A stretch of 64,000 nucleotides of DNA from Hydractinia symbiolongicarpus (Eukaryota; Cnidaria; Hydrozoa; Anthoathecata; Hydractiniidae): assembly GCF_029227915.1 (NCBI RefSeq), contig NC_079882.1, positions 13,102,501 to 13,166,500 of the forward strand, written 5' to 3'. The first letter of the stretch is position 1. Each line of letters begins with the position of its first letter. The notes under the pieces are model-generated. The model was not told the origin of the DNA and ran no database searches. It was given only the letters and a program-made list of their open reading frames with translations. The position numbers and the translations under genes were made by a program. Below, one piece after another: positions 3,237-63,266 of this stretch.

Positions 3237-3293
3237 GTAAAAGAGTGGTAAATTGTTGATTTTGTGGCTTGTAGGAGCTACAAAAACTGTGAC

Positions 3294-3704: not shown

Positions 3705-3796
3705 TTTTATCTTACTGTTTTGGGCCCCGGTTTTGGTACGAATAATCCATGCTACTCCACAAGCTTCCAGGCTCTGGGGTGCTCCAGCCTAACAAC

Positions 3797-18714: not shown

Positions 18715-21700
18715 CTGCAAAAAAACAATTACAAAAGTAATTGAAAATTAGTACTTATTATACAGCTTCTCCGCGTTAAAATTAAATTTGCCTTTCCAAG
18801 GCCCCGGCGTCGAGTCTTTTGTGTGTATAGGGTATTCTTGTTAATTGAGACTGCTACTTTTATTCAGAGGGAAAAATTATTATTAACTAGAACTCGGACA
18901 AGTGCTATTCTTTTTCATTTCCTCAGAATATAAAATATCCGCCTAAATGCGACATTTTTTTTACTTGGTTTCTTGGTGGTCTTATTTAACGAAGTATACT
19001 GTGATAATCTTGGCATCAGGTTTGCTGGTGCTGTTGAACACGCCATTTTAAAAAATGCACTGGATTTAATTTGATTGTTCTTAACAGTAAGAGAAACAAC
19101 CCATAAGGAATAAATTTATTCACATCAATGTTAACTTTGTTTAATACCAAAATGATAGAATAGGAAAATAAGATTTAGAATATGTTAAGAGTGTTTGTAT
19201 GGTAATTTTTTTCAGTTTCAACAAAGTTAACTTTACCCTATTAAGGCCTGAACTTTAGGGGCTCCCCAAATCCAGGGAGAAGGGCTGCTGGCGCTCGCTT
19301 TATATCTCCTAAACAAGAAGAATTTAACACAAAACTTGATGACGTCATTGATTTGACGATGACGTCTGCAGTTTTCAAAATCCCTTAATTTTTACCTAAT
19401 ATTTTCCTCAATACTTTACAGTTAAATGGAACGGTCATGCTCAATTAATAAACTCTCCATCAGAGTGAATTTGAAATCACTAGACTCTTTCTCAAGCACA
19501 GGGAAGTTGTGAAACTTTATCCTTTAGAATTATTTTGATAGTTCTATCATTACAATTTTATTACTGTGGTTATATTTAGTATATATCTCGAACGTTTATA
19601 TATATTGGATGAGTTGTAGATTTTGTCGTGTTTTTTTCTTAATATCTCTAAAAACTGCTCTAACTACTTTTCAGGACGTTTGAAGACAAAATTCGAGTAA
19701 AAAAAATTTTGATTTTTGGAATCGACACGATCCTACAATTTCCTGTTGCTATGACAACTATAACTACATTTAAAAAAAAGGGGAAAGCTATCCAAAGAGT
19801 AAGTCCCTACTAGTTCAAAATTTATTTTAAAAATTCTGAAAAGGGGAGCCTTAACCCTGCTTGAATTGATTTGAAAAAACAATGTTAAGCTTTCAAAGAA
19901 AAAACCCGAAAACGTCATGGGACAAGTGTTAAAAAAAAAACATGCGTAGTCGTCCACCAAAGCACCATTTGAGGGGCGTTTATTTATATTTACATTTTTA
20001 CAACGCATACTTTCATAGATTATGCTTCTCCTTCTCCTTTGTCTTATAAGTTACATTGGTAACGAAAAATTTCGGACGGAATAACTTTCGGATATTTTTT
20101 TGTCGGAAAATTTTTCCGTCTGAAATTTGTGTCTGCTGAAAGTTTTTCTGTCCGAAAATTTTGGTTTTTCTATTTTTTTAAAAAAAGGACTAGAGCATAG
20201 AAATTATATATAGGGTAATCAGAAAATCAATAAATGCAGTTTTAAAATTATTATTTTCGTTATGATAACGTAAGCTGTTTTGAAGGCTACTCTCGCAAGA
20301 GGACGATGCGAAAAGTAACGTTTGTTATTGTGTAGTTTACAATAAACAATAAAGTAATAAACTGGCATGCAGGCAAATAATGTACAAATTATTACCTGTC
20401 ATTTCTTGATACAGTTTTCTTCCTTCTGTTGGACCAGGCGTATGAAATAAAGTTCCATCGAAATCAAAGATATACAACGACTTCACAACGCGTGGGCCAA
20501 AATACATTCCAGCTTCTTTTTCCACATGGTTCTGATTTTCTTCGCCACTCCCATCATTTAAATAATCGATCCCGTCTTCATTCTCAGGCCCGCACAAAGT
20601 GCCTAGGAAAACGCTGAATTGTTTAGGGTCGGTACACATTTTACTTACGCTCGCACTGATTGCAATTTGCACCCCAACTACACCAGAAAGAATCACTTCT
20701 TCTTCGAGGTTTTTTATAATTTCTTTTTCCAGCCATTTCTGCGCTTGTTTCGCAGGAGTTTTTTTGGCATGTGATATTGTAACATGAGGTAATTTCAATG
20801 TGCACAACTTTTCATCCAACTCCTTAACCAGCACAGCTTGAATATAACTGTTTTCAATAAAACCAGTCATTTTTACTCGACTATGCTTTCCGACGGGTGT
20901 ATTTTTCACATCTGTTAAGGTTGGCGCATGCCTGATTGTCATATGATCTCCAGAAATAACCCTATGATTTGGCGGAAAATGTTTCAGCAACTTTTTTTGG
21001 GAACATTCATCTAAGTAAAGAGCGGAATACAAAACATCTTGTGCGGTTGAAGAATGAGTTGATTTCGCTTTGATCTTATTCAAATCTTTTGTCATTATAT
21101 CAATTATTGAAATATCCGAATTAGAATTTATGTAGGCTGCGTTGTTATCCAGCTCCCATCTTAAAAACATTTCTTTATGGATAACATCAGTAACTTGATG
21201 AATTCCACGTTTGCAATATCTTTGTCTCTGTGATTCATCTTCGCATAAGATCTCCACCACACTGCATTTATATCCACACAACAGTGCAAGACGTTCGTAT
21301 ATTTGATACTCCCACCTCTGCGAATGAGTGTTATCCACGATTATTAGGTTAGTCTCCTCTTCCATTCCAGCAACGAACCTATCACGACAATAAGCATGCG
21401 CGGCGGAAATTTTTTCACCGGTAAACGCATATGAATCGCTTGTTTTAAAGTACCCGTCAGCATTACACACTTTTATAGATAAGTCATTTTTTTCGGAGTT
21501 TAGTAAATGTTGCACAAAATGCGACTTCCCACTACCAGGTAATCCTCTTAAAATAAGTACAGTTCCTTTTGATATTTGTCCAGAATCTATCGAAGAAAGC
21601 GACTTCTCAAAAGACAAGGCAGTTTTTTCAAATATTATCTTATCGTGTGAAAGTAACCCCGCCATATATTCATTAGATATTTCCTCTGGAATTAACCGTG

Positions 21701-24178
21701 TATGTAATAACTTCTTGAGGTACGAATATATTAAAGATGGCAGCTTATCAGATATACAAAACAAGCTATTGTGCAGGTTACCAATGGTAACATAAAAACC
21801 ATCATCTCCACGCTCTTTTCCTGTTGAGCAAATACGTAGACCATGAACAGCTTGTTCACCAAAATATGTATTCTTGAAATGTTCATACAAAAACGGACTA
21901 ATTGAATCCATTTCTAGTTGTTTACATAATGGTCGACTAAGCTTCAGCAACGTAATATGTGGTCTGTAGACGTCGTGATTTTCAACTAATCGGATACCAG
22001 CGTCTTTTAGCTTAGCTTTGGCAATTTTTGCAAATTTATGAAAAACATTGTGGTGTTGTACTTCAGCGTGAATTACCAGACCACGAAAGTTATTGACACG
22101 TTTCACAGTTAATCCAGCTTTATCTAATGGCAGCATACAGACCAAAATATCTTCGAGAGCGATTAATACTTGAGCAGCTTTTTCTTTGTCATCGTCGTTC
22201 TCAAGTCGCATCATACATATTGTGATGTGTGCTAAGGAAGTTCTAATGATCCCATCCTCAAGTCGATCATCACACGACAAAATATGATCTTGTACCTAAA
22301 CATGTATTGATTATTATGCGAAAACGGTAAAAAGCAATTCTTACAAAGCACAAAAAAAATACGAAGTTTTAAAAGATGTTTAAGACACAGGAAGCAACCG
22401 TGTGTACAGTAAGCCAACGTAATTAATGTGGTCTGCAATACCAAAGTACGAATAAATAATACTTTTGATTATTAAGTTTTATTCTTAAGTGTGATGATAT
22501 TTTGTTAAAATGACACCGACATTTAATTTTCAAAACATGGATAAGCAAAAAACATAGACATAAAGACTGCAGCATTAAGGCCTAAATAAAATTAACGATA
22601 TATACCTTTCGCATATTTTCTTTAATTTCCATGCTGGTGATGGGAAGGCACATAAAGTAATTTGGTCTGTCTTTGTCATTGTATGATTTCGTTTTCTCCT
22701 CCACAACTTGATCTTCTGTTTTTTCTACAATGTGTTCCTTGATATCTTTATAACATTCCACTATATCGGTTAGGGTTTCGGTGTGACCAGTTGAGCCATA
22801 AACCTTATCCATTCTATCGTTCTTGTCCCATATTTTTGTTTGTTTATATTTGAAATATTGGATTCGATGTTTTGGAATTGCAAGAACATTATAATCCACC
22901 GATGCAAGATCCTCCCAAGAAAAAGCTGAAAATGGCTTCTCAATTACACCAATAAATCTGTCTAAATAACCAACTATAAAATCTTCTGTTGGTAATGAGT
23001 TGTCCCAGAGAATGCGATTGATAACATCAATAGCTGTCCTCATGGATTTCTTTTTCGTGTTGAAACTCGATTTTTCTTCATTGTTGATATCAATTTTCTT
23101 TTTCTTTTTCGTTTTTACTTTTGAATGATGCGCAGGTTTTCTTTCATCCTGGTCATTTTTTTTTACAAATTGTAAAACTTCCACATCCTTTTCTGCATTC
23201 TTACCGCTGTTGTTATTATCAAGAGCTGAGTGATCATTCCAATACTCGACAGCAGTGGAAACAAGAGAATATAACATCGGCGTACCAACTCTTTCAGAAG
23301 CAGAATCTTCCATTAACTTTATAAGATCATTGTCTTTGTTAGAAGACTTAATAGTCGGGATAGCAATAGGATACTGCTCTAAAATTAAATATTTAGCCAT
23401 TTTAAATAAAAAAAATGTTTGGCAACATGAAATTTAAAATTGAAGTCACAAGGAAATAAACATTGACTTCGCTATCTCAAAAATTGTATTATATTTGTAG
23501 AAAGGCAAATATTAAATAAAACTCGAATGTGCTGAAATTAGTATCAATAGATAAAATAAGAAAATAAATTGAAAAGCGGTTCACCCTAACCCCATTGGAC
23601 AAAACTCTCCCTTCAAACATCTATACGAATAAAACATATCGGACTCAAAAACATCTAACAAGAGAGGAAAGTTATAACTGAACGCTTTCACAGCATCCGA
23701 AGCTGGGTTTGCCTAAAGTTAACATATCTTATTTCTGCACACACCAACAGGTTGTCTATAAAAAAAAGATAAAATTACACTCTTTTTAATTTGTTAATTG
23801 TATGCATAGTTTAGGGATAACCGGCTAATGTATCTTATAAAATATGAATCATTAACTGAGCCAAGAAAATCGCACGATCAATTTCTCTGTCCTCCTCAAC
23901 AAGTAATAACTTTTTTAATCAAGCTAAAGAGCTGTGATTTTCCTCAAAAAGTAGTAGTTATATGTATATCACAGAAGTAGAAATTCAAAATAACAACAAA
24001 AGTTCTCACTGGACAAGTAAAAAACAATTTTCTTAGTGTGATCCATTTGATAAATGACCTTAATAACTTCCATCTTTGTTGTATTAATTTTTACTTCATC
24101 CATATAAATAGCTTTTAAAGCTTCCAACTCTTCAAATATGCTGCCATCAAAATTAGTTGTCTCGCGCGATTCTGCCAT
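17168..24178 (-). CDS. Multidomain RNA-repair protein: RWD-MJ1316-2H-kinase-2H-HAD-nucleotidyltransferase
   Basis: Four exons on the minus strand (24178-24010, 23378-22606, 22295-20396, 18714-17168) join with GT-AG borders and matching phases (1, 0, 1) into one 1462-residue frame. Domains in order: RWD (about 14-106), a Lys-rich linker, MJ1316 RNA-end recognition (about 170-244), AKAP7-type 2H phosphoesterase (about 295-515, H337 and H427), P-loop polynucleotide kinase (565-572 GLPGSGKS, D635), a second 2H of SAK type (H765, H818), HAD phosphatase (D925, T993, DD1046-1047) and nucleotidyltransferase (G1121-S1122, D1130, D1132, D1188). In known families these modules recognise and open 2',3'-cyclic phosphates, phosphorylate 5'-OH ends, remove 3' phosphates and add nucleotides. 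Together they suggest healing and tailing of cleaved RNA. No ligase and no signal peptide are seen. Domain calls are by motif, the joint function is inference. Confidence 0.85.
20040..20165. repeat. Foldback-rich CGGA/TCCG segment in intron 3
   Basis: Repeated complementary words (ttcggacgga, ttcggat, cggaaaatttttccg, tttttctgtccgaaaatttt) make several overlapping stems in this intronic stretch. It may be the remnant of a foldback element. Intron 3 (18715-20395) otherwise shows no coding signal. Confidence 0.5.
20396..22295 (-). CDS. Exon 3: two 2H phosphoesterases around a P-loop kinase, and HAD motif I
   Basis: The acceptor (TTTAG before 22295) makes the exon begin VQDHILSCDDRL, which completes the AKAP7-type 2H domain started by PNYFMCLPIT at the end of exon 2. 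HITICMMRL and HITLLKLSR are the paired H-x-T motifs. GLPGSGKS and LIIVDNTHSQRWE are the Walker A and B regions of a polynucleotide-kinase-like domain. Then YSALYLDE, GDHMTIRHAP and LPHVTISHA mark the 2H-SAK phosphoesterase. The exon ends just after FDFDGTLFHTPGP, HAD motif I. The donor is ACAG-GTAAT. Confidence 0.88.
22606..23378 (-). CDS. Exon 2: RWD second half and MJ1316 domain
   Basis: The strong acceptor ATTTTAG places the exon start at 23378, so the ATG at 23400 is intronic and is not a start. QYPIAIPTIK and GTPMLYSLVSTAVEYW complete the RWD domain of exon 1. A basic stretch (KVKTKKKKK) follows. The MJ1316 (DUF504) domain shows RILWDN, DFIVGYLDRF, IPKHRIQYFKY, WDKNDRMDKVYGS. In proteins such as LENG9 this domain accompanies a 2H domain, as here. 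The donor is CGAAAG-GTATAT, phase 0. Confidence 0.85.
24010..24178 (-). CDS. Exon 1: start and RWD first half
   Basis: ATG at 24178 begins MAESRETTNFDGSIFEELEA, with the family pattern EELEALKAIYMDEV at residues 16-29. The donor CCA-GTGAGA at 24009 leaves phase 1. Joining to 23378 gives FYLSKQYP, the expected central RWD strand before the YP motif, which supports both borders. RWD domains bind proteins, often in ubiquitin or translation-control settings. Confidence 0.8.
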
Positions 24179-34764: not shown

Positions 34765-36050
34765 AGTAACTAATTGAATTCATTTAAAAATGTTTTAAAA
34801 TCAGACATGCCTAAAGAACGGGCCTCTAGAGAAAGCGTTTTATAAATTTTTGCTCCGATAAAATAAAAGCTTTTTCTGGCATACTCCGGTTTTATTTTAT
34901 TATTATTTCTCGTGTTTATTTCATGATCTTGAGCATTTACTATTGATTTAAGCCGATTGTTCGGATCACTATAATCTCTAAACTATACACAACACACAAA
35001 GCTCTCCTGTGCAGGAAATCCATTTTGTTATGCGAGTGTTTGTGAGTGCCTAGAGACGCAACCCCACAATAGATGAACGTTGGCATCACCATACTTTGAT
35101 AAATTGATTTGGCGGTTGCAAGTTCGACTTCGTATATGATTTTCGACAAAAGGTTTAAACGGGATGAGGCTTTCTTATAACATTTTCCAAAGAAAGTATT
35201 CATCGAGAGCGAACTTTCGATAAGGACACCAAGATACTTATATTCCTTTGCTATCAAGACGTTCTGATGGTCAACTGTGATGTTAAAGTTGACAAGCTGA
35301 TTTTTTACTTTCTTTGATATTAAAAATAATAGAGCCTCAGTTTTTTTTCTTTCTTCAGATTAATTATAAGTTCGTTTTCTTTGCACTACGATGAAACGGC
35401 ATCGAGATTTGCGTTCATCTTCAATCAGCATATTTAATGAGCTTTGAATATTTAGTGACATTGCCAAGATCATTGAAAATCATTAAAAACAAAAAAAGAC
35501 CAAGGATAGACCCTTGCGGTACTCCAGAACAAATACCAAAGCTTTCGGATTCACATTTGAAGTTTGACATTTTCTGTACGACAAAAAAGACAATCTGTAA
35601 ACCAATCTAGTTTTACAATCATGTATTCCATATTTCGGAAGTTTCGATAGCAATTTAGAATGACTAATTGTGTCAAGATCTATAAAACATGCACCAACCA
35701 TATCTTCTTTATCAACATGTGAACAAAATGTCATCTAATAATATGGTAACTGCTTGTTCGGTTGACATACCTTTACAAAAACCAAATTGACGTGAATACA
35801 ATAGTTCGTTTTCCTCCAAATAGCTGTAAAGCTGACTATGAACAATTTTCTCAAGAATTTTGGAAAGAATTGGTAAGATTGATATTGGTCGATAATTGTC
35901 AAAAGTAGATCGAGTACAAGATTTGTAAACCGGTATAATTTTGGCAACCTTCCAGGCAGTTGGTATAATCCCAGTTGATATCGATAGATTTATAATGTCG
36001 CATAAATGATGTTTTATTGAATTGATAATAAACGATAAAATTTGTTGAAT
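34765..36050 (-). mobile_element. Decayed non-LTR retrotransposon (LINE), reverse transcriptase part
   Basis: Reading downward from 36050, frames give NYRPISILP-type and ILEKIVHSQLYSYLEE-type blocks (about 35800-35900), ACFIDL-DTISHSKLLSKLPKYGI (about 35620-35690), a short degraded catalytic region, then KYLGVLIESSLSMNTF and MPTFIYCGVASLG (35250-35040) and a tail with YARKSFYFIGAKIY (about 34860). These are the successive fingers, palm and thumb blocks of a CR1/Jockey-like LINE reverse transcriptase. Several frame changes and stops show it is dead. The 5' part (endonuclease) is missing. Confidence 0.8.
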
Positions 36051-37039: not shown

Positions 37040-37215
37040 TTACATAAAAGGATTACAAACAAAATGGGATTACAAAGTGCGATAAAATGAGTTACAAATT
37101 GCGATGGGATTACAAAGAACGACAAAATGGGTTACAAATTGCGATTGGACTACAAAGTGCGACAAAATTGGATTACAAAGTGAGATAGCAATGTGCGATA
37201 GAATTGCAAATTGAT
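37040..37215. repeat. Short-period GATTACAAA repeat
   Basis: Words of the form gggattacaaagtgcgacaaaat and gggttacaaattgcgat alternate about seven times with a period of roughly 20-24 bases. A second array of the same words is at 47690-47800. The minus-strand frame over it is repeat-driven. Confidence 0.7.
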
Positions 37216-38799: not shown

Positions 38800-41700
38800 A
38801 TGAAGTGGTACCTCGCTCTGTTAATAGTATATCTTATACAATATGCATCTTTGAAACCGCTAGATGATGATAACCAAGGTAACCTTATTTTTTCTGCATG
38901 GATGTCTAAAGATTGACCGAAATGAATTTGATTATTTTAATACGATAGTACGAAGCAATCAATTTACTGATTGTTTTTTAAGTACAAGAAGGTGATGACA
39001 AACGAGACAAAATCAGTACAGAGCCTGAGAAACCTAGTCCTGCCGACATCCCAGCTGACGATAGTGCTGCAGCTGTTGATGCACCATCAGATTCATCGCA
39101 AGGTGATCCTTCTGCAGCTCTAGAAAAGCTTGGTTCCGAAGGCGATGATGCCACGAAACCTACTGAAGGTGCTGAAAAAAAAGACAACACTGGCGACTCG
39201 GACACAGCAAACGCTGACGCAGTAAAGAAGGACACCGCTGGTGATGCCGATGCTGCCAAAAAAGACGATACAGGTGACGCAGTAACTTCCCCCGCTCCTA
39301 CTACTGTGGTTGTTACTACAGGCAAGATTGATGGAGGTGCAACAACTACCGCTACTCCTTCAAAAGAGGTAACAGCTACGGATGCTCCTTCCAAAGAAGG
39401 GACTGCTACGGATGCACCTGCAACAACAGTCAAACCGTCAGGTAAGATGAAGTGCAAATTTTTTTAGGCGGTAATTTTTAGGTGCTAAAAAAGCATCAAT
39501 ATTTAAATAAACTTGCTCAAAAGAAATAGAACTTGAAAAACTTACTACTATCATTATACACAATTGATGCTTGAAAACAATTTTTGCTTGATGACAGGGT
39601 CAAGCACAGTAGGAATTAAAAAAGATACTATAACAGCACCAACACCTAGCAACAGACCTTCAACTTTACCAAGTACGTCAAACAAACCTCCGACTACTGT
39701 GCCAACTACAGTAATACCAACAACGGTCAAGAAGACCACCAAACATGCGAGCACAACAAAAAAACATCACTCCACCGCTGCACCAACCAAGAAGAAAGAA
39801 GGTAACTTTCAGATTAAACAAGAACGTTGTATTCAAGTATTACACATGAATACTTGTTGTATGTTCCACTATCAACTTTCAACAACCGCATCTACACACA
39901 TTCAGAAGATCATCATAAACACAAACACACGCATACGTACACATATATCAAGCAGTATAAATTTAATACGCTATCGTATTTAGTGGGAGCTTCACAAGCA
40001 ATAAAAAGATCTGGTTTGGTTACTCGCCGTACGACTACTCATAAACCAACGACATCAATATTTGACTTACCTTCGAAACGACATACTACTTCAGGTAAAA
40101 AAAAATGTGTGCAAAACCTGTCGGAAAAACCGAACAATACGGATTTCCGAAGTTGTGAAACAAACACGCAAACACGCATTTCTGCTCACAAGATCGTGTC
40201 TGAACTGACTTGAAAGCTCGCGCCTTGTTTGATAGGTAATGCTGTAAAGAAAGACAAAAGTAAGCCGAACCCCACGACTAAACCACATCTAATAAAAGGT
40301 AAAACAGGATCGTCGGCAGGTTTACTCTGCTGTCTGCAGACCTTAATGTTTAAACATTGAACAACGTGTTTGTAATCTTGTTGTCATTGTTTTTTTTAGA
40401 AATATGTTGTTGTTTGTTTGTTTTGTTGTTATTCTCGGCGTAGTTGTTTATAATTGTTGTTGTTGTTTTTTTTTAATTTCTCTTTTCTTTTTCGTTTACT
40501 TTTTAGCAACCACAGGTGCACCAACGAGTACCAGTCCGCCAGAAAAAAAAACCGTCGAAAAATCTGACAATAACACTTTGACAATGAAAGGTTTGTTGTG
40601 CATATTGAACGCTAAGATATCTGCAGCTGCTATTCTGGAGTGCTTTTTTCCTTATTTATAACATGTTTTTCAGGCACAACCTTTCATGTTGGTGTTAGAT
40701 TTTTGGACGAAAAATTTACAGACGATTTAAATTTCCCAAAAAACCCAGTTTATCAAAGTTTAAAGAAACATGTTATGACAACTGTAAGTAGCTGGATGAG
40801 CAAGTTAAATTCTAAGTAGCGGAATCAACGAGTCGAGTTTTCAGTAGCTGAATGACAAATCAAACTCCTTCTTCCTATAGGTCGCAGAGGTATACAAGAA
40901 CTACAAAGATTATAAACAAGTTGTGGTGATTAAATTTAGGTATGTTGTGGTAGGGTGTTTGTTTTAACTTCTTCCAGTCCCATACCTAGCCGTGCCAGAA
41001 TTTATTTATAGTGTTTACCGATCTCTTCTGCTTCGCAGTCAGCATAAAAAAGGATTAATATTCTACGCTGGTGTGGTTACCCGACCTGGTTTCTATTTTG
41101 ACTCCACAATCATAAATTTATAAAAATCGAAAAAGTGAAACTTATGGACCCGCAAAAAATAGTACCCGTTATTTATGTTTTTCCATACCTTTTAGTGACA
41201 GCGAGAAAAAAGATACATCCGGTGGCGATGATAAAAGAGACGAGTATGTATTTATTTATTAATTTATTTTCTCTTAAATCTTAATTATAACTGCATCTAA
41301 AGTGAATTAGGGTTGGGATTAGGGATCAAATCAAATTTGTTATTAATATTTCAGTAATTATATTATGTCGGGGGTTGCAGCTGCATGTGTCATAGTTGAA
41401 ATTTAGTTTAATTTATTTCAATCACTTCGACTTGATCTCTGCACGCTTGAAATGACATTTGTTATCCATCCTGATAATATATATTTTTTGTGACAGCATT
41501 GGCAATCCTGGAGTAATTGTCGACTTTTACCTTCGTTTCTACACTGCGTCTACCCATTTGGACAAGTTAACTGAAGCACTGCAATCAGGCAAACTTGGCA
41601 CGCATCCTGTCTCTCCACTATTTGTGAGGGCATGTAAGTATAATGTATGTTTAAGTGGTTCATCACATAACATTTCAAGTTATATAACTTCCTGTGTGGT

Positions 41701-42451
41701 TTCATATTTAGATATTGCTGAGCCAAAAGGTCGTGTTTGTACTCCTGACTGTAAGATTCAATGCTATTCGTATTGCGATGCAGGATGTTGTAATCTTCAT
41801 GTTATTCAGCACATTGATATGCCAACACAATCTCCAGTAGATGCTTTAATTCAGCAGCAACAGCAACAACTGCAACAGCCATGCCAAGGAGCTACTTGTA
41901 CCTCAAGTCCTCCCCCTCCACAAACTCCTTGTGAAGGTTCTTCATGTCAACCAGCCATGCCACAAATGCCATGTCAAGGAGCTTCTTGTGCACCACAAAT
42001 GCCTATGCCTCAGATGCCTTGCCTAGGGCCTTCATGCCAACCAGCCATGCCTCAGATGCCCTGCCAAGGAGCTTCATGCCAACCAGCTATGCCTCCGGTA
42101 CCCTGCCAAGGAGCTTCATGTCAACAAGCCATGCCTCAGATGCCCTGCCAGGGGGCTTCATGTGCTCCACAAATGCAGCAGATGCCATGTCAAGGAATGT
42201 CATGCCAACCCCAAATAAACCCTTGTAGGGGCTCATCCTGCACACCTCCACCACAAATGATGCCTCAACCCATGCCTTTCATAAACTATGCCCCAATGCC
42301 ACCTCCCATGATGCAGCAGTGCCCTCCATCATGCAGTCAAATTTGTGCACCATCATGTCCAAACCAATGTTGTGGCATGCCGCCACAAATGCCAATGCAA
42401 CAAATGCAATCACCTTACGGTGCTGCACGATGTGGACCAAGAGGTTGTTAA
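38800..42451 (+). CDS. Secreted SEA-domain protein with two minicollagen-type cysteine domains (likely nematocyst protein)
   Basis: Eleven exons (38800-38878, 38983-39441, 39598-39801, 39984-40094, 40236-40298, 40507-40590, 40674-40783, 40881-40939, 41196-41243, 41497-41633, 41712-42451) join in frame by GT-AG borders into 697 residues. A signal peptide (about 1-18) and an acidic stretch ending in KR (33-34) resemble the pre-pro regions of nematocyst proteins. An Asp/Ala/Thr-rich then Thr/Ser/Pro/Lys-rich mucin-like part (35-333) follows, then a SEA domain (about 337-450). The end has CRD1 (461-478) and CRD2 (655-672), both C-x3-C-x3-C-x3-C-x3-CC, around nine PCxGxxC repeats. No membrane anchor is present. 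Minicollagen CRDs crosslink by disulfide exchange in the capsule wall; a role in wall or tubule matrix is inferred. Confidence 0.85.
41712..42451 (+). CDS. Terminal exon: CRD1, PCxGxxC repeats, CRD2
   Basis: After the acceptor TCATATTTAG the exon reads CTPDCKIQCYSYCDAGCC, an exact minicollagen CRD spacing. A Gln run (QQQQQLQQ) is followed by nine units of a Pro/Cys/Met/Gln-rich repeat, the clearest being MPCQGASCQPA. A Pro/Met linker leads to CPPSCSQICAPSCPNQCC, a second exact CRD. The stop is TAA at 42449-42451. The frame stays open through the preceding intron, so one long frame from 41459 is partly intronic. Confidence 0.88.
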
Positions 42452-44460: not shown

Positions 44461-46648
44461 ATGAGGCTACTATTTTTCATGTTCTTTGGGGTGCTGCATG
44501 GTCTGCAGTTACCATTTCTCAACATGGGAATAAGTTTGCCATCTATACCAAGAATTGGCTTTTCGTTGCCAGATCCGCTATTCAACCAGCAAGATGATGG
44601 CATGCTAGATGCGAGGGATGAGGATGGCATGATAGATGGAATGATACCAAATTTCCCATTTAGAGAGGGAAAAATGTTAAATGAAAAAGACGTCAAAACC
44701 AAAAATAACACATTTGTTAAAGGTCAGGACGAGATTAGATCAAACTTTATCGAGTTCGTCTTTTTTTTTTGACATTGCCTGCATTTTCTGCATTAGCTAT
44801 TCGGACAGGTATTCGGACAGATAGATTTAGTAGCAAACGTTTTAATGCTATTATTTAACTTCAGTATCTCTATACAGCTAGCTGTTAACTATGATTATGA
44901 TATTTTCTCATAGCTAATTTTAGGACTAGCTATATTTCTTCAAGAATAATGTTCGCCAAAGCTTCTTTTTTATAGCAGAATAAACTTTTATGATGTGTAA
45001 TGAGTTGGATGTGCAATGAGTTGGATGTACAATGAGTTGGATTAGTTCCAAATACAAATAATACTCAATCTGCATGAAAGATCATTTTGTAAAGCCGCTC
45101 TTTCACGATCAACTTTTATATAATAATGAGCATATAAACCACCTGTTTTTCATTTCTCCCAACCATCAAATAAATTCAACCCTGTGAATTTTAATTTCCT
45201 TTCCTGACATTTTTTATTAATGAAATATTTTGTCTCTTTCTCTCTCTCTCGTGTATGTTTCTTTCACGTTTACATGCTTTGGTACCATGTAACAATGCGT
45301 CGACTCTCTTTTTAGATGGCTACAAATATACAACAATTAACAAAACAGGACCTGGTTTTTTCTCCTATATGACTGAGGTTGTTGATGATGGCAAGAAAGG
45401 AAACAAATCCAAATTTGATATCTCCTCGAAACTTTTCAAGGGCGGAAGTCTTCTTAATTTGATAAACGGCGGAGTTATGACAGATGGAAAGGTTGGTCGT
45501 TACGATTTTAAAATTCTTTTTAAGAACCTAAAAGTAATTACTTGTATGCAGGTACTTGAACAGCTTTTACAAACCTTTAATTTTTCGTAATTATTTTTTT
45601 TTTTTTTAGAAAAAATGTAAGAAATGTTCGCCTGGTAAATATTGTGATCCAATGTTTGGCAAATGTCGTAAACAGTTAAGTGAAGGGAATATATGCATGC
45701 TCATTAATCAATGCGAGAAAGGTCTGAGATGTGTGTGGGGAAGATGCAACAGAGCTGAGGCTGGTGCACCAGGTAACTTTTTCAACAGCTTATGTAGATC
45801 CGCAAAATAATTCTTGACAAACAAACTTAAAAAGGTCTATTCGTGAAAAAAAGACTTGCGAAATATTTCAAAATCACTGATTCTCAAAAAATAAGGTAAA
45901 AATATAGAAAGCGTAAGACAGAAAAAATCATATAAAAAAATGTTTTGCAAGCAATGTAATTTCTAGGATTGTAATAATCGCTTATAGAGAAAAAGAGAGG
46001 TTACCTATATTTTCTTGGTGCCCTGATTGGTGTAAAACTGTATTTGCAGGAACATTTTGCAAGAAGAAGGATCAATGTGACGGGGATGCATGTTGCATTA
46101 GGACTGAAGGAAGCTTCCATGCTATGTGCATCCCCCCTCTTGATGAAGGTGCTGTGTGCGGACAGCAAAGTGAAAACAGTTTCATGAACCTGCTTTCTCC
46201 TGAACGGAATAAGGAAGATAAGCAATGCAGCCCATGTAAGCCAGGCCTTAAATGTGGCGGAGTTGGGTAAGAAGTAGTATTTTTTATTTCAGTTCTTGTT
46301 TGAATATTATGTTTTAAAACACGAAAATGTCAATGCGATAATCATATTTTGAGTTTTTTATTTCTATTCTAAAGAAATATGCACTACAAAAAATGTGTTC
46401 CACTAAGTTACTCCGAGGAACCTAAAGAAGCAAATAATGATAGCAGTGGTGACAAAGATGATGAAGAGAAAAAACAAAAAGATGACAAAATTGACAATGA
46501 TGAGGATGATAACAGCGGGATGAAGGAAAGTTCAAAAGATGATGATGATGATGATGACAATAATGATGATGTCGATCCGAAAGAGGAAGGGATACCAGTT
46601 CAAACCAAGCCGAAGAAAAAGAAGAAACAGAGGGGCGAGAAAGTATAA
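44461..46648 (+). CDS. dkk3-like: Dickkopf-3-like secreted protein
   Basis: Five exons (44461-44722, 45316-45491, 45610-45772, 46050-46266, 46375-46648) join in frame into 363 residues. A signal peptide covers about residues 1-16. Exon 3 holds a first cysteine domain (CKKCSPGKYCD, QCEKGLRCVWGRC). Exons 4-5 hold a colipase-fold domain (FCKKKDQC, DACCIRTEG, MCIPPLDEGAVC, then a long insert with FMNLLSPE, and CSPCKPGLKC, KKCVPL). The long insert between cysteines is characteristic of Dickkopf-3 rather than DKK1/2/4. The C-terminus is unusual: a strongly acidic Asp/Glu tail with a seven-Asp run, then a basic KPKKKKKQRGEKV end. A Dkk3-type gene is reported from Hydra nematocytes, which fits the neighbouring gene. 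Exon 1 uses a weaker donor (AAAG-GTCAGG). Confidence 0.8.
45001..45050. repeat. Short tandem repeat in intron 1 of the Dkk3-like gene
   Basis: Three copies of a 16-base unit aatgagttggatgtgc, the third ending in gattag. Confidence 0.75.
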
Positions 46649-52890: not shown

Positions 52891-53186
52891 AGGTCAACTA
52901 AGCTAGTTATTTAATCAGCAAAAAATAAAGTTAGTAGTAGCAAGGAATGAACATAAGTGGTTTTGACCTCCTTTGACACCTTTACCCCCTCAAAACCCTG
53001 CCTCCACCACCTCCACCCCCACCCCAGCCCTACCCTCCCAAAATCGGAAAATCCGACGGCATCCGAAAAAAAATCCGATAGCATCCCGAAACCCGATAAA
53101 TCTAACGAATGCGCACACGCCGATAGTAATAATGCTGACATCAACAAAAACTAACGCATGCACAATAGGAGAAAGTCCCGTACTCG

Positions 53187-53570
53187 ATGGCCGTGCTATT
53201 TGAAGTCTACATTGGAGGTGTAAAAAGAAGAATGGAACGCTCAAAATGCCCACAATGTAGACAATTTTTACCCATGGATAAATTCAGGCTTAAGGATGAT
53301 GGGCAGAGGACAAAATCCTGCATCTGGTGCCTTAAGGCTAGACAGGCTGCCGCCCTCGAAGAACGTCGGAAAAAATATGGTAATGGTAAAATGTGCCTCT
53401 GTTGCGGGGAGCTTAAATTTGACTTCGAGTATAGGATACTAAACAAAAAGAGCCCAAGATTTAGCACAAATTGTATCGAGTGCCTGCTCAAGAACGCTTA
53501 CAGGGATGAGCAAATCCGAAAAAGGTATTTCGATTGGTTATATCGTGGAAAAGAATGTACCCCATTATAA
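53187..53570 (+). CDS. Zinc-finger protein of Polinton B
   Basis: A 127-codon ORF; an internal ATG near 53232 (MERSKCPQC) is the more likely start because the preceding residues are not conserved-looking. Two zinc-ribbon-like units are visible: CPQCRQFLPMDKF with CIWC, and CLCCGELKFDFEY with CIEC. The first unit resembles that of the HNH protein at 59632 (CSNCNQPLCLNNF with CIKC), so the two may be related. A role in DNA binding is likely; no catalytic motif was seen. Confidence 0.6.
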   Translation: MAVLFEVYIGGVKRRMERSKCPQCRQFLPMDKFRLKDDGQRTKSCIWCLKARQAAALEERRKKYGNGKMCLCCGELKFDFEYRILNKKSPRFSTNCIECLLKNAYRDEQIRKRYFDWLYRGKECTPL

Positions 53571-53691
53571 TACCGTTACTTACTACTATAACAAAGCGAA
53601 GGAGCAAATCTCGAGAGGTTCGACGCTCCACGATGAAGTCCAGCAGATCACCATCGAAGATAAATAACAGGGAATCACCGACCTCAAACAC

Positions 53692-54365
53692 ATGTTCGCA
53701 AAGGAATCTAAGCAACCCACGAACCCCGAAGGTATAGAGGATATCCAGCACATATTCGATGAACATGACGCACAGATGTTAGAAGACGGAAATCGTGTCA
53801 AGACATGGCGATTCAATAAGAATCTAAACCAACCACTGACAGATGCGATAATGCAAAAAATCACGCCTCATATCGATTTGAGAGTCACTGAGGTCTGCAG
53901 TTTCAACTGTGATATTCACAAAGGTGGTGGTGACGTGTCTGATTACCACAAGTCCAAGAGCGCCAAGTCATTATCGAGCATTGCAGAAATCGAAGCCTTC
54001 ATAGAGCAATGCGAGATGAAGCGTTTGGATCTGGAAGATGCGGAGATTTTGACAAGGCCTATCTACCACCCGACAGAACCATCGAAACCCCGGGATCGTA
54101 CGAGGGCAAAATTGTCTTCAAGCACTTGCAGATCAAAATAATTTCATCAAGAGAGCCCCTACTTGGATGTGAACCTCTTCCGGACTGGTTGTGCGGCAAA
54201 AGGTGCATCTACAGCTTTGACAAGACAGACGAAAGAACAGACAGCTTGTGCTTCTGGAGATGCCTAGCCGTTCATTACCGGGAAGAGCGAACGCAGCGTG
54301 AAATGTTCATCACAAGGCCAGCCCTCAAACTGGCTCGTGAGTACTACGAGGACCCCAAGCTGTAG
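53692..54365 (+). pseudogene. Polinton B DNA polymerase, N-terminal part
   Basis: Two overlapping frames (53692-54141, then 54009-54365) carry the N-terminal region of a Polinton polymerase. The second includes DRTIETPGSYEGKIVFKH, LLGCEPLPDWL, and SLCFWRCLAVHYREER, the last a block usual in this region of Polinton polymerases. A frameshift lies between about 54030 and 54140, and an in-frame stop occurs upstream near 53667. At 54365 the coding sequence is cut by the nested transposon and resumes near 56490. Confidence 0.75.
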
Positions 54366-55115
54366 GCACTTCAAGTCACGTGACAATTCCCGTTGATCAA
54401 AAATTGCGCAATTTCACGGGAAATTCTGACGGGAAATTTTCTGTGATTTATTTTTGTTATCACATTTATATATAAACATCTGGGCACCTTCGGCACCTCT
54501 AGAAGTATAAACTTGGGCAGATATTGAAACTAGGCACATACGAGTTTATATAACGACCTGAGCCAATATTGGAGAAGCAGATATGTTGTTGTGGGGCCGA
54601 AGAGAAGACGAAAAAAGCTGATATTTGGAGGTAAAACTAAATTTAAGGAGTTGGCTCACCTTTCAAATGTATTTTTAACTATCTGTTTACCAAGTATTTG
54701 TTATTTTGTGTACTCTAGACTTTTCTTAGTGCAGCAGTTTCGTGTTTATAAAAACTGTATATTTACTTTTTCTCCTAAAACGCATATTTAGTAAAGGCCA
54801 ACCGCCATTTTAGGTTTGTTACTTTACTTTAGTTACTTTAGCTAGTTTTATTATTCTTATTTGGTAAAGCTGTTTTATATGTAGTTATAACTAGCTTAGC
54901 TAAGTGAAGCTCTCCTCAAGCACTAGCTAGAAAACATTTTTCAAATTTCAGCTTAATATTTAGCTAGCTAGAGCTTAACCAGTTTTATAAATAACTTTTT
55001 TTATAGACAGAATATAACAAATCATGAGTTTGACAAATAGAGATGTAATTGAGTGGTTTAAGACATTCAAAATGTATGTGAACAGTTTTGTAGCAATTTT
55101 CTGAAAGATAGGACA

Positions 55116-55592
55116 ATGTTTAATGATAAAACACTCTTTAATAAAATTAAGAGAGTCGTCGACAAGGACAGATTTTTTAAAAGGAAAAATGGTAATTTTA
55201 AAGAATTTGGTGATACTGCTTTTTCGTTGCCTCTTATTGCCACACACGTTTCTCTTTCTGCTACAAATAAAGAAAGGACATTAATGCAGAAAGTAAACGT
55301 ACTTAAAGAAGAAGGAAGGGATTTAAAAAGAAAGTTAAGTGAACTTGAAGGTGTAGAAAAAGTAGTGCAAACATATGCTAGCCAAATAACAGCTTTAGAA
55401 GAAGTAAATAAAAAATTGAAATCGGTAGCTTTGGATACTTCCCACGATGGACATGTTTTCGAAAGAAAATATACTATCTTAAAGAAAGATTATAATGAAC
55501 AGGAAAAAAAACTTGAGAAGTCAGAAAGAAAATTCAGTTGTTTTGTTGAAAAGTATGGTAGTGAGAGAATAAGAAACTTGAATAAAAAATAA
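55116..55592 (+). CDS. Coiled-coil ORF inside the nested transposon
   Basis: A 158-codon ORF of which residues 50-158 are Lys/Glu/Leu-rich with heptad-like spacing (LKEEGRDLKRKLSELEG). The N-terminal part is basic. A second frame at about 55600-55830 continues the same character (ELNSERKSLKKKAWYLNKK) and may be a frameshifted extension. It looks like a captured piece of a host gene, since transposases do not show this composition. No family was recognised. Confidence 0.45.
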   Translation: MFNDKTLFNKIKRVVDKDRFFKRKNGNFKEFGDTAFSLPLIATHVSLSATNKERTLMQKVNVLKEEGRDLKRKLSELEGVEKVVQTYASQITALEEVNKKLKSVALDTSHDGHVFERKYTILKKDYNEQEKKLEKSERKFSCFVEKYGSERIRNLNKK

Positions 55593-55797
55593 AACGTAGA
55601 GATGAAAACATTGCTGAAAAAACAAAAAAAATAGACGAATTGAATTCTGAAAAAAGTGAATGCGAAAGAAGAAAAGGAGAATGAATTTGTATCTGTAATA
55701 GACGAGTTGAACTCTGAAAGAAAATCGTTAAAAAAGAAAGCATGGTATTTAAATAAAAAGCTAAGTGAAAGTGTGACTAATCACGGTGACCTTAAAG

Positions 55798-56115
55798 ATC
55801 TTTCAGGAAAATTTTGGACACATCCATTACTTATATATTAGTTTTCTAAGCAGTAACTTTCATAAAACAATTCAAATATATGTTTTATTGGTATTTTTAT
55901 TAGTTTTAACCATATTTGGTCATTATGTTTTCACAAATCTGGTCTGTAAAATACACACTTTTATCACGTGATAATCTTTCAGGAAAATTTTGGGCACATC
56001 CTTTACCTATATATTGGTTTTCTGAGCAGTAACTTTTATGAAAACACTTCGAGTAATGTTTTATTGGTATTTTTATTAGTTTTAACCATATTTGGTCATT
56101 TCCATAATGGCAGAG
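55798..56115. repeat. Direct duplication inside the nested transposon
   Basis: Segments at about 55798-55930 and 55977-56110 share ctttcaggaaaattttgg, cacatcc, gagcagtaacttt and tgttttattggtatttttat with few differences. Confidence 0.85.
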
Positions 56116-56489
56116 TTGTGACGTGATATTTTGAATAATAAAAATGATGATAAAAAATATACGTGTTTATTAATATCCTCTAAAAATTTAAAGTTATTCC
56201 TAATTCTAGAACGAAAGATATGAGAATTTCAGTTCAGGCGATTTTGTCGTTAAAACGGACTTTTTTATACCCTGTTTTTTGTGCCATTTTATTTCCCCTT
56301 TTTCTGCAGAATATTGCAATGGAATTGTTCAAAAAATGCCATCAATTGCACATACTAAAATGTCCATAACTTTGGTTCTACTCAACATACAGAGGTCATT
56401 GACCTCTCGTTGGATTTTTCTTAGTCTGTAGAACAATCTTAATTTGCTTTAGTGCTTGATTTGGGATTCAACAAAAATGCCCTGAAGTG

Positions 56490-59400
56490 CCTAGCTAAAG
56501 CGTGAAGATGTGCGCCCTACAAAGCTGGTGGACTTCGAGGGTATTGTCAAGCACTCCAAGATCAACATCAGAGTCTTTGAGCCAAACGAACTCGGAAAAG
56601 GCCCCATGGCGGCTAGTCTATGGTCAGAATCAGTACAAGAAGGGGTTCGACACGATCAACCTTGGTATGCTAGAGGGTCACTGCTACTACATCAAGAAGA
56701 TGGATGTTTTGACTCAACACTGGGAATGCCAGGCCTTTAAATCAACGCTTTACGCAAAGCAACAACCTCGCGCGACACAAGAATAACGATTGTGAAGGTG
56801 TCAAGACGACAATCATTTGCAAAGGCAAAAAGGTCGAGCGCATGCCGAGCAAATCAGAAAAGGTCTTTTACCCCGATAAGGGTTTCAGCTACGCAGCGTG
56901 TCAATGGATAGAAGCCATGTCAGAGCAAACCGGAAATCATATACACCACGCGCTCTGTGGGCATGGCGGAGAGCAAGTGATTCGTTACGAGAAGAGAGAC
57001 AACGATTTCTACAAGGTAGACGACTATGAACCCTAGACCAAAACAGTCTACGAATATCACGGCTGCAAGTGGCATGGATGCACCTGTCAACCGTAGAGAA
57101 CCAAAGCAGATAAGAATCGGTACTCCGCGACTCTGGATAAAAAAGAGTCTATCCAAAAACTTGGCTACAACCTGGTCACCACATGGGAGTGCGAGAACCC
57201 CCCAAATGTTAAGAGGCTCTTCAAGAAAGAATTTCCACCCTATCCCCACTTCATTGCCTTTGACTTTGAAGCTCTCCTGGCACCATTACACCAGCAGCAA
57301 ACGGCCGATCTAACATACCTTTCAGAGCATATCCCGTTAAGTATTGCCATTCATGATAGTCTTCAAGAACATCCAACGTTCATCATTCATGAAAGCCCCA
57401 AGGCGTTGGTGCGGAAAGTTGTTGAGCAACTCGAGCAGAGGCAAGCCCGCATAGTTAAAGAGGTGAGGTCGAAAGGCTGCACCCCAAGCCCAATGCTGTT
57501 CTTACGCTCCCGAACCAAACCCAAAAAGCTTGGAACGAATGGTTGAACCAAGTGACGGTAATAGGTTACAACAGCGGCAAGTATGATATCAACCTGATCA
57601 AGCGGTACTTTGTCGAGCGAATTGCGGATGATGACGAGGATCAAAGTGGCAAAGAAGGATAACGACTACATGTTCCTCACCACTTCAAAGTTCAAATTCC
57701 TAGACATTAAAAACTTTCTTTCGCCAGGGATGAGCTATGAAGGTTGGTGCAAGTCATTGGATTGCAACCTCAAAAAGCTGGTGTTCCCGTACGAGTGGTT
57801 GTCGAGATATGACAAGCTGAATCATATCGGCCCCGTCGATCATGAGGCCTTCTATAGCAACCTCAGCGGTAAAAACACCCTCTCACCCGAAGATTGCCAG
57901 GCGTTGCGGGATGAGTTTTACAAGAGGGGGTGTGTTACTATGATGGACTGGTTGGCCGAGTACAACCTGGCGGACGTGGTACCCTTTGTCGAAGCTGTCA
58001 ATAAGACGAGAACTACATACTACGAGGATGAGATTGACATTCTGAAGGACGCCGTGAGTATACCAGGTGTATCGATCCGCTACGTTCTGAACAAATCCCT
58101 GTGCCTGAACCCCGAAATAGAGCTTTATGCACCGGGGGACCCCTGCATGCACAAGTGCCAAGACAACTGCGTCAAAAACCGATGCAAGGCCTGCATCGAG
58201 ATCAAAAAAGCATGCGATGAGTGCACCAGGAATGAGGCTTATGATCTCCTGCAAACAGGCATGATAGGTGGCCCCGCTATCGTCTTCTGTAGGTATCATG
58301 AGCGAAATGTGATAGCCATAAGATCTCACATCCATGACAGCCCACGCAGGTGCAAGATCATACTAGGTTATGACGCGACCATGCTCTACCCTAGCACCCT
58401 GCTGCAGGACTTCCCTTGTGGGAAGGAGAAGCTGATAAAGATGGCCGACCCCGTTGGAGGATTGGAAGCTCTGGTGCAAGGTGTTCTGGATGGATCGCTC
58501 TTTAGTTTTGCCCAAGTTGACGTCGAAGTGCCTGCCGAGCTGTACGACAAGTTCAGCGAAATGGCCCCGCTATTTGTGGTGAAGGAGATCCCTGATAGCC
58601 AAATACCTCAGCATATGCACGAGTATTTGACCAAGACCGGGCGGAAACGTATCCCCGGCACTAGGAAGCTCCTGGGGTTGATGAAAGCGGAGAAGATCCT
58701 GCTGTGTACAGCCCTGCTCAAGTGGTATCTGGAGAGTGGGTTAGTAGTCACGGCATGTTACCAGTTCCTCAAGTACTCCAGGGGCAAGCCATTCGCGTGG
58801 TTCCCGGAAGAGATTGCGGATGCGGAGATACAGCAAAGTTGAAAGGCAACAGCTTCTAGGGAAAAATAATCGAAGACCTGGCAGGGCATGCCAACACCAC
58901 CTTTACCAGGGACGAGAAGGTGGTAGATGCGGCAATGAGGAGCCCATACCTGGAAGATTTGGAAGAGATTGGAGACGCGTACGAGGTGAGAAGGTGAGAA
59001 GCAAGGGGTTGCCATCAATCGCGCCTATCAATGTGGGATATATGTTTACCAATTAACCAAGTTGTGCATGCTGGAGTTCTATTATGATTTTCTGGATCGG
59101 TACGTCGATCGCCGGGATTTTGAGTACATATATATGGATACGGATAGCGCTTATTTTGCCATCTCTGGAGATGAGCTACGTGATGTCGTTCGCCATGAAC
59201 TCCTAGAGCAGTACGACGCTGATGTGAAAAATTGGCTAGTCACCGACAGATACTCGAGTCGGACGGGAGGTCTGTTCAAACCCGAATTCATCGGGTCTCG
59301 AATGATCGCTTTGACCGCCAAGTGCTATTTCGTTGAAAGCAAGGAGGGTTAGAAATTCTCCTGCAAAGGAATGTTGAAAGGGCAGAATGAAGTAACTTGG

Positions 59401-59574
59401 TCAAGGTATATGGAAGCACTGAACGGCGAGCTAAATACCGCTAAAAATGTAGGCTTCCGGGTTCATAACCATGGCATGGTGACGTATGAGCAGAACAAGC
59501 TGGGGCTCTCAGCGTTCTATGGTAAGCGGAAGGTGCTCGAGGACCGTATACATACGGTGCCTTTAGAATTGTAA
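56490..59574 (+). pseudogene. Polinton B DNA polymerase, exonuclease and polymerase parts
   Basis: The gene resumes with RPTKLVDFEGIVKHSKINI near 56510 and continues through several frames. FIAFDFEALL near 57250 is exonuclease motif I and a YNSGKYDIN stretch near 57570 is exonuclease motif II. The 410-codon frame 57610-58842 carries a Cys-rich insert and polymerase motif A (GYDATMLYPS, near 58365). Frame changes follow near 58840 and 59055. YMDTDSAYF near 59131 is motif C. A stop at 59350-59352 precedes a last conserved stretch to 59574. The protein would replicate the element by protein priming; at least five breaks make it nonfunctional. Confidence 0.85.
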
Positions 59575-59631
59575 GTCGAGTGTTAGCTGTGTCCGCACGT
59601 TGTTGTCTACTGGGTGTAGACAACAACAAAA

Positions 59632-60138
59632 ATGAATGTCAGGTGCTGTTCAAACTGTAATCAACCTTTATGTTTGAATAATTTCAAATTAGACAAAAGA
59701 GGACAACTGACAAAACAATGCATCAAATGCCTGGATAGTAAGAAGGCGTCATATGAAAGTACAAGGTGCCCGCATCAAAAACGAAAGATCCAGTGCAAGG
59801 ATTGTGATTTCCCTGGTTATCAGCATAACCTTATTCTAGCCAGGATTCATTATGCTTTAAACCATGACACGGAGCCTCTACTGAGTACCTGGGGTGCGGC
59901 ATTTGCACCCTTATAGGGTATATCCAAGACCAATTCAAAGATGGGATGTGCTGGGGGAACCGAGGGCAGTGGCAGTTTGACCACAAAATCCCACTCAAGT
60001 ATCAAGAGAATGGGGAATATCCCAGCGAAGATGTGCAACTCGAGAGACTCCATTACACCAACCTGCAACCAATGTGGATCGCGGATAATCAAAGCAAGGG
60101 CCATCGATATATATCTGAGTAAAGTAAGTCGCGTTGAA
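59632..60138 (+). pseudogene. Zinc-finger HNH endonuclease, one frameshift
   Basis: The ORF 59632-59916 starts with a zinc-ribbon unit (CCSNCNQPLCLNNF, CIKC) and a second Cys/His unit (CPHQKRKIQCKDC) as in zinc-finger HNH proteins of large DNA viruses. After a one-step frame change near 59865-59910 the sequence continues YIQDQFKDGMCWGNRGQWQF-type residues, DHKIPL, and LHYTNLQPMW, which are the HNH core and its typical follow-up. These enzymes cut DNA and often spread as homing genes. It sits directly after the polymerase. Confidence 0.7.
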
Positions 60139-60689
60139 TAGATTTGTGTTTTTCTCAAAACTTTGAGTCACTCCTCTTCAGTATGAATCGGTAAAAACAA
60201 GAACAAACTCATTTGCCCCATCTATTCAAAAATGATAAACATTTCTGAATGATCAAGATGTATGTATGATGTGTAAACGACCTAACCGGTGATGCGTGAA
60301 TTTTCACACAGGTAATACCCAAGGTGATACTGAATAGCTATATACGAAGCTCGATATATATTAAAATTGTGGTAGCAGGCTTAGACCTGGCTGAAGGGTA
60401 CGGATGGGCGGGCAAGACCATGCCTTACCTGGAGTCGGCTGTCTCGCCCCGGTTTCTACCACACACTGTGCCAGTCGGAAAAGATTGTGCCAAAATGCCT
60501 GTTAAATGTCAGTACGCTAGGCCTGCAAAGCAGAACAGCACTGAAAATCACCTCGGATATGGAAAACAAAAGGCTCTGAGTGGGTATACTCGCAGAATCA
60601 AAACCCCTCTGGGTTCAAACAACATCAACAAAAAAACAACAGCAAAGCACCCAGAGGAATCCCTTACGAGGGTTTTGCTTTGAAAAAAC
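60139..60689 (+). other. Spacer with an unsupported 119-codon frame
   Basis: An open frame at 60324-60683 has no recognisable domain and an irregular composition; a stretch at about 60530-60665 contains many Lys/Asn codons. It ends just before the membrane-protein gene at 60690. It could be a decayed small Polinton gene. Nothing else is visible here. Confidence 0.3.
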
Positions 60690-61310: not shown

Positions 61311-61351
61311 TTTATGAACGATCGAGAAATTTGCCCCACAAGTTATACAGA

Positions 61352-61513
61352 ATGTCACCCATAGGCTATTCGGATTGGTGCAGCATGACGGGGGACTGTG
61401 GTATACACGATTGCGAAATATTGACACCAGTGGCCGATAGATTCCCATCACACGTGTCCATTCTAGAGACAAGGGGATATATGAACAAGAGCGTGTATAA
61501 AGGTCGATATTAG
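61352..61513 (+). CDS. Small Cys-containing ORF of Polinton B
   Basis: A 53-codon ATG ORF between two better supported genes on the same strand, 37 bases before the next one. It contains WCSMTGDCGIHDCE. No family was recognised; its place and intact frame are the only support. Confidence 0.4.
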   Translation: MSPIGYSDWCSMTGDCGIHDCEILTPVADRFPSHVSILETRGYMNKSVYKGRY

Positions 61514-61550
61514 ATCCGGGTTCTTTTGGTAGGTTTTCAACCTACAAGAG

Positions 61551-61871: not shown

Positions 61872-61883
61872 GCCATAACATAA

Positions 61884-62183: not shown

Positions 62184-62184
62184 A

Positions 62185-62779: not shown

Positions 62780-62794
62780 ATCAGCTAAATAAAT

Positions 62795-62995: not shown

Positions 62996-63018
62996 GACCA
63001 TTTCACGTCATGAAAATA

Positions 63019-63238: not shown

Positions 63239-63266
63239 AAAATGACCATCTGGCTCGAGAAATTTA

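Follow-up and report, generated by a model that had tools for sequence, protein, structure and literature searches.

Can a SEA domain and the cysteine-rich domains (CRDs) of minicollagens belong to one nematocyst protein, and what might such a protein do? The question is raised by a gene in a 64,000-nucleotide stretch of Hydractinia symbiolongicarpus DNA (contig NC_079882.1, positions 13,102,501 to 13,166,500; hereafter the window). The gene runs along the + strand of the window at 38800..42451, from an ATG at 38800 to a stop codon ending at 42451, and its 11 exons encode a 697-amino-acid predicted secreted protein composed of a signal peptide, an acidic propeptide ending in a Lys-Arg pair (KR), a Thr-rich stalk, a SEA domain, a first CRD (CRD1), nine CX4C units and a second CRD (CRD2). 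A reading of the letters alone (the original prediction) had placed a gene at exactly these coordinates; it is complete and agrees with RefSeq, whose uncharacterized LOC130655235 from the same species (isoform X2, here P0001, and isoform X4, P0002) is the closest database protein. Judged by its domains, the product is probably a nematocyst structural protein of the CRD type whose stalk is displayed by the SEA domain, whether or not that domain is cleaved. The nematocyst role is suggested by CRDs, an acidic KR propeptide and a CRD-linker-CRD layout like that of CPP-1; expression in cnidocytes is very likely, and incorporation into a disulfide polymer nearly as likely. There is a precedent in Nematostella, in which CRDs together with a minicollagen propeptide correctly predicted the cnidocyte expression of NvNCol-7, according to passages of PMC12549020.

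SEA and CRDs in one protein family

Homologue searches covered 5.8 billion proteins under length and word limits, and one of them scored the best 7991 candidates. Besides the two RefSeq isoforms, eight homologues (P0003-P0010) were found. All six that reach the C terminus (P0003-P0008) hold SEA, CRD1 and CRD2 in a single frame, and each has two exact CRDs, as does the window protein; five of the six lie on contigs no longer than 2.2 kb, a size that fits transcripts (no contig data are given for P0007). The combination of SEA and CRD in one protein, for which the original prediction had proposed a search of cnidarian proteomes, is thus present in the RefSeq models and in six homologues, and the RefSeq isoforms join the SEA and CRD exons that, on a contrary outcome, would never have been joined. 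P0004 and P0006 are without an N terminus, and P0009 and P0010 are without the CRD part: P0010 ends where SEA does, and P0009, which by its label we take to be from an Aurelia (jellyfish) gene set, departs from the family sequence directly after SEA and is perhaps a mis-joined gene model that hides its CRDs. The family may be a marker restricted within the cnidarians, its placeable matches being hydrozoan and, by the label we attribute to Aurelia, scyphozoan.

The signal peptide, called by eye, has as its sole support the hydrophobic segment at the N terminus, no other 19-residue stretch of the protein being as hydrophobic; exon 1 (38800..38878, MKWYLALLIVYLIQYASLKPLDDDNQ) encodes it along with the start of the acidic propeptide. 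The propeptide closes with KR at residues 33-34 (codons at 39000..39005) in the context EGDD-KR-DK, and its end is likewise KR in five of the six homologues that have an N terminus and KK in the sixth, P0003. The stalk, encoded by exons 2-6 (38983..40590), is free of Cys and rich in Thr, with 28% Ser plus Thr and 10% Pro. SEA follows in exons 7-10 (40674..41633); the Pfam stretch covers residues 336-422, and the modelled SEA fold of relatives reaches about the end of exon 10.

For the whole window protein, the Pfam SEA family PF01390 scored 27.0 bits (cut-off 26.4), and 32.2 bits for the piece alone. Precomputed database labels give SEA for P0001, P0002 and P0004, and predicted models of two members have a SEA fold, with MUC16 nearest. 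Queried with either the SEA segment or a profile of nine members, PDB sequences returned weak matches only: the SEA of a mouse transmembrane protease (2e7v, E 0.63), and 2plc and 1aod (E 0.64-0.71), which were taken as chance. The domain is therefore assigned on Pfam and fold comparison. No second hydrophobic segment was found (best 19-residue hydropathy after residue 30, 0.52), and a membrane mucin is ruled out by the lack of a transmembrane-like segment after SEA. Likewise, no run of four or more Gly-X-Y triplets occurs in any of 11 sequences, ruling out identity as a collagen or minicollagen, for which the criterion is 12-16 Gly-X-Y repeats. On the KR propeptide-like site, the SEA domain, the two exact CRDs and the missing collagen repeats, the original prediction is borne out; its term 'mucin-like' fits the stalk moderately and as a matter of degree, the region being rich in Thr, Ser and Pro yet also in Lys and Asp.

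Two CRDs of different kinds

In six frames of the 64 kb, the pattern Cx3Cx3Cx3Cx3CC is matched by CRD1 (CTPDCKIQCYSYCDAGCC, residues 461-478, 41738..41791) and CRD2 (CPPSCSQICAPSCPNQCC, residues 655-672, 42320..42373) and nowhere else. When the Cys-rich tail was shuffled 200,000 times, at least one CRD match appeared in 0.076% of shuffles and two in 0.0015%. Between the CRDs lies a Pro/Gln/Met-rich linker with nine CX4C units, mostly CQGxSC (residues 509-628, 41882..42241), part of which has a 42-nt tandem period, and the protein ends with CGPRGC (42431..42448). Linkers differ within the family: the window protein, P0003, P0004 and P0005 have 8-10 CX4C units, those of P0007 and P0008 are Pro/Ala-rich and Cys-free, and P0006 has neither type.

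According to passages of PMC4863159, position 11 of a CRD is Pro, and Val or Ile at position 4 with Pro at position 14 mark the C-CRD fold. CRD2 has Pro11 in seven of seven sequences, Pro14 in six and Ile4 in three; in the window protein both Pro11 and Pro14 are present. CRD1 follows the form C-TPD-C-Kxx-C-[YF]SY-C-DxG-CC, with Ser at position 11 in all seven sequences and Pro there in none. Compared with PDB sequences, CRD2 matched nematocyst CRDs and nothing else, and the nearest to CRD1 were the CRDs of NOWA; the full Cys-rich tail found no PDB match up to E 1. On these residues, the two CRDs are not equivalent: CRD1 forms a separate, conserved type, and its fold cannot be taken for granted.

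A basic residue at a fixed place in the SEA loop

Passages of PMC6954182 describe the β2-β3 loop as cut in the SEA domains of MUC1 (autoproteolysis), Notch2 and GPR126 (furin; human GPR126), and the cut halves as associated until parted by force or ligand. In the window protein, this loop contains KR at residues 403-404 (codons at 41233..41238) in the context GGDD-KR-DD, a proposed cleavage site. An Arg lies 7-9 residues before β3 in all nine distinct members (the window protein and P0003-P0010) and keeps this place while the loop varies from 19 to 26 residues; in six of the nine (the window protein, P0004, P0006, P0007, P0009 and P0010) it belongs to a KR or RR that follows Asp or Glu. KR or RR pairs begin at residues 33, 255, 262, 279 and 403 of the window protein, the first ending the propeptide and the last lying in the loop, and the hexamer GDDKRD occurs twice, at these same two places; any KR-holding 6-mer was repeated in 2 of 20,000 shuffles of residues 1-450. 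Excerpts of PMC4321713 describe the KR end as conserved across diverse nematocyst propeptides. Autoproteolysis of the loop is ruled out, as the Gly-Ser motif (GSVVV/GSIVA at the start of β3) occurs in none of the nine members, and furin itself is set aside as the obvious loop protease, its consensus, (R/K)-X-K-R, being absent from every loop.

Cysteines are distributed unevenly about this site. Every Cys of the window protein is C-terminal to the loop KR, and the only Cys N-terminal to the loop Arg elsewhere are residue 18 of P0003, 26 of P0005 and 11 of P0009, in or beside the hydrophobic start; the six other members have none, a count that includes P0004 and P0006, which lack the N terminus, and P0010, which like P0009 lacks the CRDs. 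Beyond residues 1-26, all Cys are therefore on the C-terminal side, and no disulfide would be expected across the halves after a cut. Such a cut would divide a window protein of about 70 kDa into a stalk half of about 39 kDa and a C-terminal half of about 31 kDa, glycans not counted. Exon 9 (41196..41243, 48 nt, phase 2-2) encodes the end of β2 and 15 of the 20 loop residues including KR, according to the P0002 model, with the last five in exon 10. Its omission would preserve the frame, remove KR and shorten the loop; both RefSeq isoforms contain exon 9, and skipping is possible but was not observed. Together, these features make cleavage of the loop at its basic site a tentative proposal, and force-dependent release of the stalk half, by analogy with the known cut SEA domains, doubtful.

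Gene model and transcripts

The remaining exons lie at 38983-39441 and 39598-39801 (exons 2 and 3), 39984-40094, 40236-40298 and 40507-40590 (4, 5 and 6), 40674-40783 and 40881-40939 (7 and 8), and 41497-41633 and 41712-42451 (10 and 11), all on the + strand, and all ten introns are GT-AG. X2 and X4 match this model at every common exonic residue (675 and 570 identities), with one mismatch each, at the codon on the border of exon 10 and intron 10. Exons 2-6 are each of phase 1-1, and stalk length appears to be alternatively spliced, because X2 is without exon 5 and X4 without exons 3-5.

Intron 10 (41634..41711, 78 nt) is open in frame and is kept in X2 and X4. Its retention inserts 26 amino acids after β4 of SEA, among them three Cys and an N-glycosylation sequon, and the predicted model of P0002, in which it is retained, still has β4. 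The insert is absent from all six homologues that span this point. The form from which intron 10 is removed is probably the main one, and the retained form could be real or could be incompletely spliced RNA.

Neighbouring genes

A Dickkopf-like gene for a secreted protein whose C-terminal tail is acidic occupies 44461-46648 (+), some 2 kb downstream and in the same orientation. Three presumed exons joined by eye gave a Dickkopf_N match of E 9e-4 and 20 bits, below the cut-off of 25. Passages of PMC3517583 place Dkk3 in the Chironex venom/nematocyst proteome and state the same for Hydra; on this circumstantial ground, the two genes may be neighbouring cnidocyte genes.

Upstream, fragments resembling the reverse transcriptase of a non-LTR (long terminal repeat) element were seen by eye at 34943-36050 (-), and short imperfect repeats of the type GGATTACAAA..GCGA..AAATG, again by eye, at 37040-37215 (+). 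Mobile-element genes occupy stretches at 2251-4354 and about 53100-63920, with an rve integrase (+) and a Pox_A32-like ATPase (-); their integrase-like frames at 2251-3045 and 63270-63920 are very similar by eye, and we take the two stretches to be Polinton/Maverick-like. Large frames at 17171-23433 (-) match HAD_SAK_1, an AKAP7 2H phosphoesterase-like domain, AAA_33 and MJ1316, with a nucleotidyltransferase match below cut-off, and resemble an RNA-repair protein with several domains, of the Swiss Army Knife type.

Relation to known proteins

The family probably belongs to a known class, the CRD-bearing nematocyst proteins, and what is likely to be new is the union of SEA, a mucin-like stalk and CRDs. 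CPP-1, of the Hydra capsule wall, has a proline-rich linker between two CRDs and no collagen (passages of PMC6910907), and the Pro/Ala-rich linkers of P0007 and P0008 resemble it; no SEA or mucin stalk is described for CPP-1 in those passages, whereas the family studied here has a CRD1 without Pro11 and, in Hydractinia, a CX4C-rich linker. Cnidoin, the elastomer of the Hydra capsule, similarly has CRDs around a non-collagen centre and a large putative propeptide ending in KR, but its centre is Gly/Gln-rich and silk-like, and the available parts of PMC4321713 describe no SEA in it. NOWA is also a non-collagen nematocyst protein that combines C-terminal CRDs with an extracellular domain, yet it has eight CRDs and a C-type lectin (excerpts of PMC10014300), against two CRDs and a SEA domain here. 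A signal peptide, a KR propeptide and terminal CRDs are shared with the minicollagens and NvNCol-7 (excerpts of PMC7981951 and PMC12549020), from which the window protein differs in its missing Gly-X-Y. With MUC1/MUC16, Notch2 and GPR126 it shares the SEA fold and, as in the protease-cut SEA domains of the Notch2/GPR126 kind, a basic residue in the β2-β3 loop; unlike those membrane-bound proteins, it is predicted to be secreted and seemingly CRD-anchored, and its family has neither the Gly-Ser motif nor the furin consensus.

In the literature searched, we found no description of a nematocyst protein with SEA and CRDs, although one may already be mentioned in the Hydra nematocyst proteome paper (Journal of Biological Chemistry (JBC) 2012). 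LOC130655235 was not found by locus name, nor did 'SEA domain' with cnidocyte return anything. The consulted passages of a coral microarray study name a SEA protein without linking it to nematocysts, those of a Nematostella matrisome paper matched nematocyst and mucin terms but do not contain 'SEA domain', and those of a Hydractinia single-cell paper and a polyp-expression paper do not name the gene. A survey of nematocyst genes in Myxozoa mentions, in its available part, a further CRD protein, NSP4 (PMC6134521).

Proposed function and alternative explanations

We suggest that the gene encodes a secreted structural protein of cnidocytes that would work like CPP-1, Cnidoin, NOWA and the minicollagens. 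The acidic propeptide would be cleaved off at KR ahead of the protein's transport to the growing nematocyst vesicle, and the C-terminal half (CRD1, a CX4C or proline-rich linker, CRD2) would join the disulfide polymer in the capsule wall or the tubule through CRD2 and perhaps also through CRD1 and the CX4C units. Through SEA, the Thr-rich, Cys-free stalk of about 300 residues would be displayed on that polymer. A protease of the type that trims nematocyst propeptides might cleave the basic site in the SEA loop, after which the SEA β-sheet alone would join the two chains. The stalk half could be a fixed coat, a releasable coat or a large removable propeptide; after a cut, it would be one of the last two. 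The glycosylated, disulfide-locked layer of the original prediction is thereby refined: only the C-terminal half could be locked by disulfides, and the putatively glycosylated, Cys-free N-terminal half may be removable.

Several observations weigh against this proposal. All eight homologues are below the Pfam SEA cut-off of 26.4: seven were scored (P0004 26.2, P0010 23.9, P0008 20.2, P0006 18.7, P0007 18.4, P0009 17.3 and P0005 14.5 bits), and P0003 gave no match at E 1. Outside SEA and the signal helix, the models mostly have a predicted local distance difference test (pLDDT) value below 50, and the CRDs are therefore unmodelled. CRD1, with Ser11 in place of Pro11, may not fold like known CRDs, and retention of intron 10 in X2 and X4 places three Cys beside SEA. 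In three of the nine loops (P0003, P0005 and P0008), the Arg stands alone; the furin consensus is absent, and three further dibasic pairs lie within the Hydractinia stalk. The shuffle product of 1e-7 for the loop Arg is descriptive and not a probability, as the position band was set post hoc, the loops are charged and the members are related. Excerpts of PMC4321713 report that HEK293 cells left the KR propeptide of Cnidoin uncut, and a special protease must therefore be assumed. No match named as Hydra, Clytia or an anthozoan came from the searches, which had length and word limits and leave absence unproved; for a capsule protein of general use, this is odd.

Among rival explanations, that the SEA loop stays intact and the SEA-bearing mucin-like stalk is permanently CRD-locked into the wall, as the original prediction pictured it, has nearly an even chance. 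Non-cleaving SEA domains exist, and the monobasic loops, the lack of both the Gly-Ser motif and the furin consensus, and a form made uncuttable by in-frame skipping of exon 9 (unseen in both RefSeq isoforms) would fit it; the fixed place of the loop Arg in all nine members despite their different loop lengths, and the segregation of Cys to the C-terminal side, argue against it. If the loop is cut, everything N-terminal to its KR might instead be a large propeptide that is discarded, leaving a mature CPP-1-like CRD-linker-CRD protein for which SEA was only a folding or shielding module. We regard this as rather unlikely. The putative propeptide of Cnidoin is 90 residues long and ends in KR (passages of PMC4321713), and a charged minicollagen propeptide is suggested to prevent premature cross-linking in excerpts of PMC4863159; all Cys are C-terminal to the cut, and stalk length differs by exon skipping and among members. 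However, the first KR site, also conserved, would then be superfluous, and the conserved C-side half of SEA would be unfolded unless the N-half stays bound, as cut SEA halves are reported to do (PMC6954182, in part). A nicked SEA acting as a detachable joint, by which a Cys-free mucin coat on the CRD-cross-linked wall or tubule is shed under the shear of discharge, seems unlikely; were it so, exon 9 could switch between releasable and fixed forms.

A wholly different origin, in epithelial or gland cells, as a secreted mucin or a matrix or periderm protein with CRD motifs gained or borrowed, is improbable. SEA domains with Thr-rich stalks are typical of epithelial mucins, and hyperdisulfide peptides reportedly occur elsewhere, for example the β-ginkgotides; CRD1 is divergent, and no Hydra-named protein was among the matches returned. 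Yet CRD2 matches nematocyst CRDs only, among PDB sequences, the NvNCol-7 precedent (PMC12549020) shows the same signs foretelling cnidocyte expression, and the protein has no second hydrophobic segment of the kind found in membrane-tethered mucins. That two genes or transposon debris were wrongly joined, an artefact that the mobile-element genes elsewhere in the window might bring to mind, has next to no probability and is refuted by the RefSeq isoforms, which join the SEA and CRD exons, and by the six homologues with SEA and both CRDs in one frame.

The preferred reading, a CRD-type nematocyst protein with a SEA-displayed stalk, would bring a module of animal mucins into the repertoire of probable nematocyst wall proteins and provide a concrete example of a SEA loop that may be processed in a protein not bound to a membrane. 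If the stalk half is instead a large propeptide, the finding would bear on how a reactive disulfide polymer avoids setting too early. If the coat is releasable, it would bear on how the tubule everts fast without sticking, and a true detachable joint would mean that a secreted organelle has reused the force-sensitive SEA mechanism known from Notch and MUC1.

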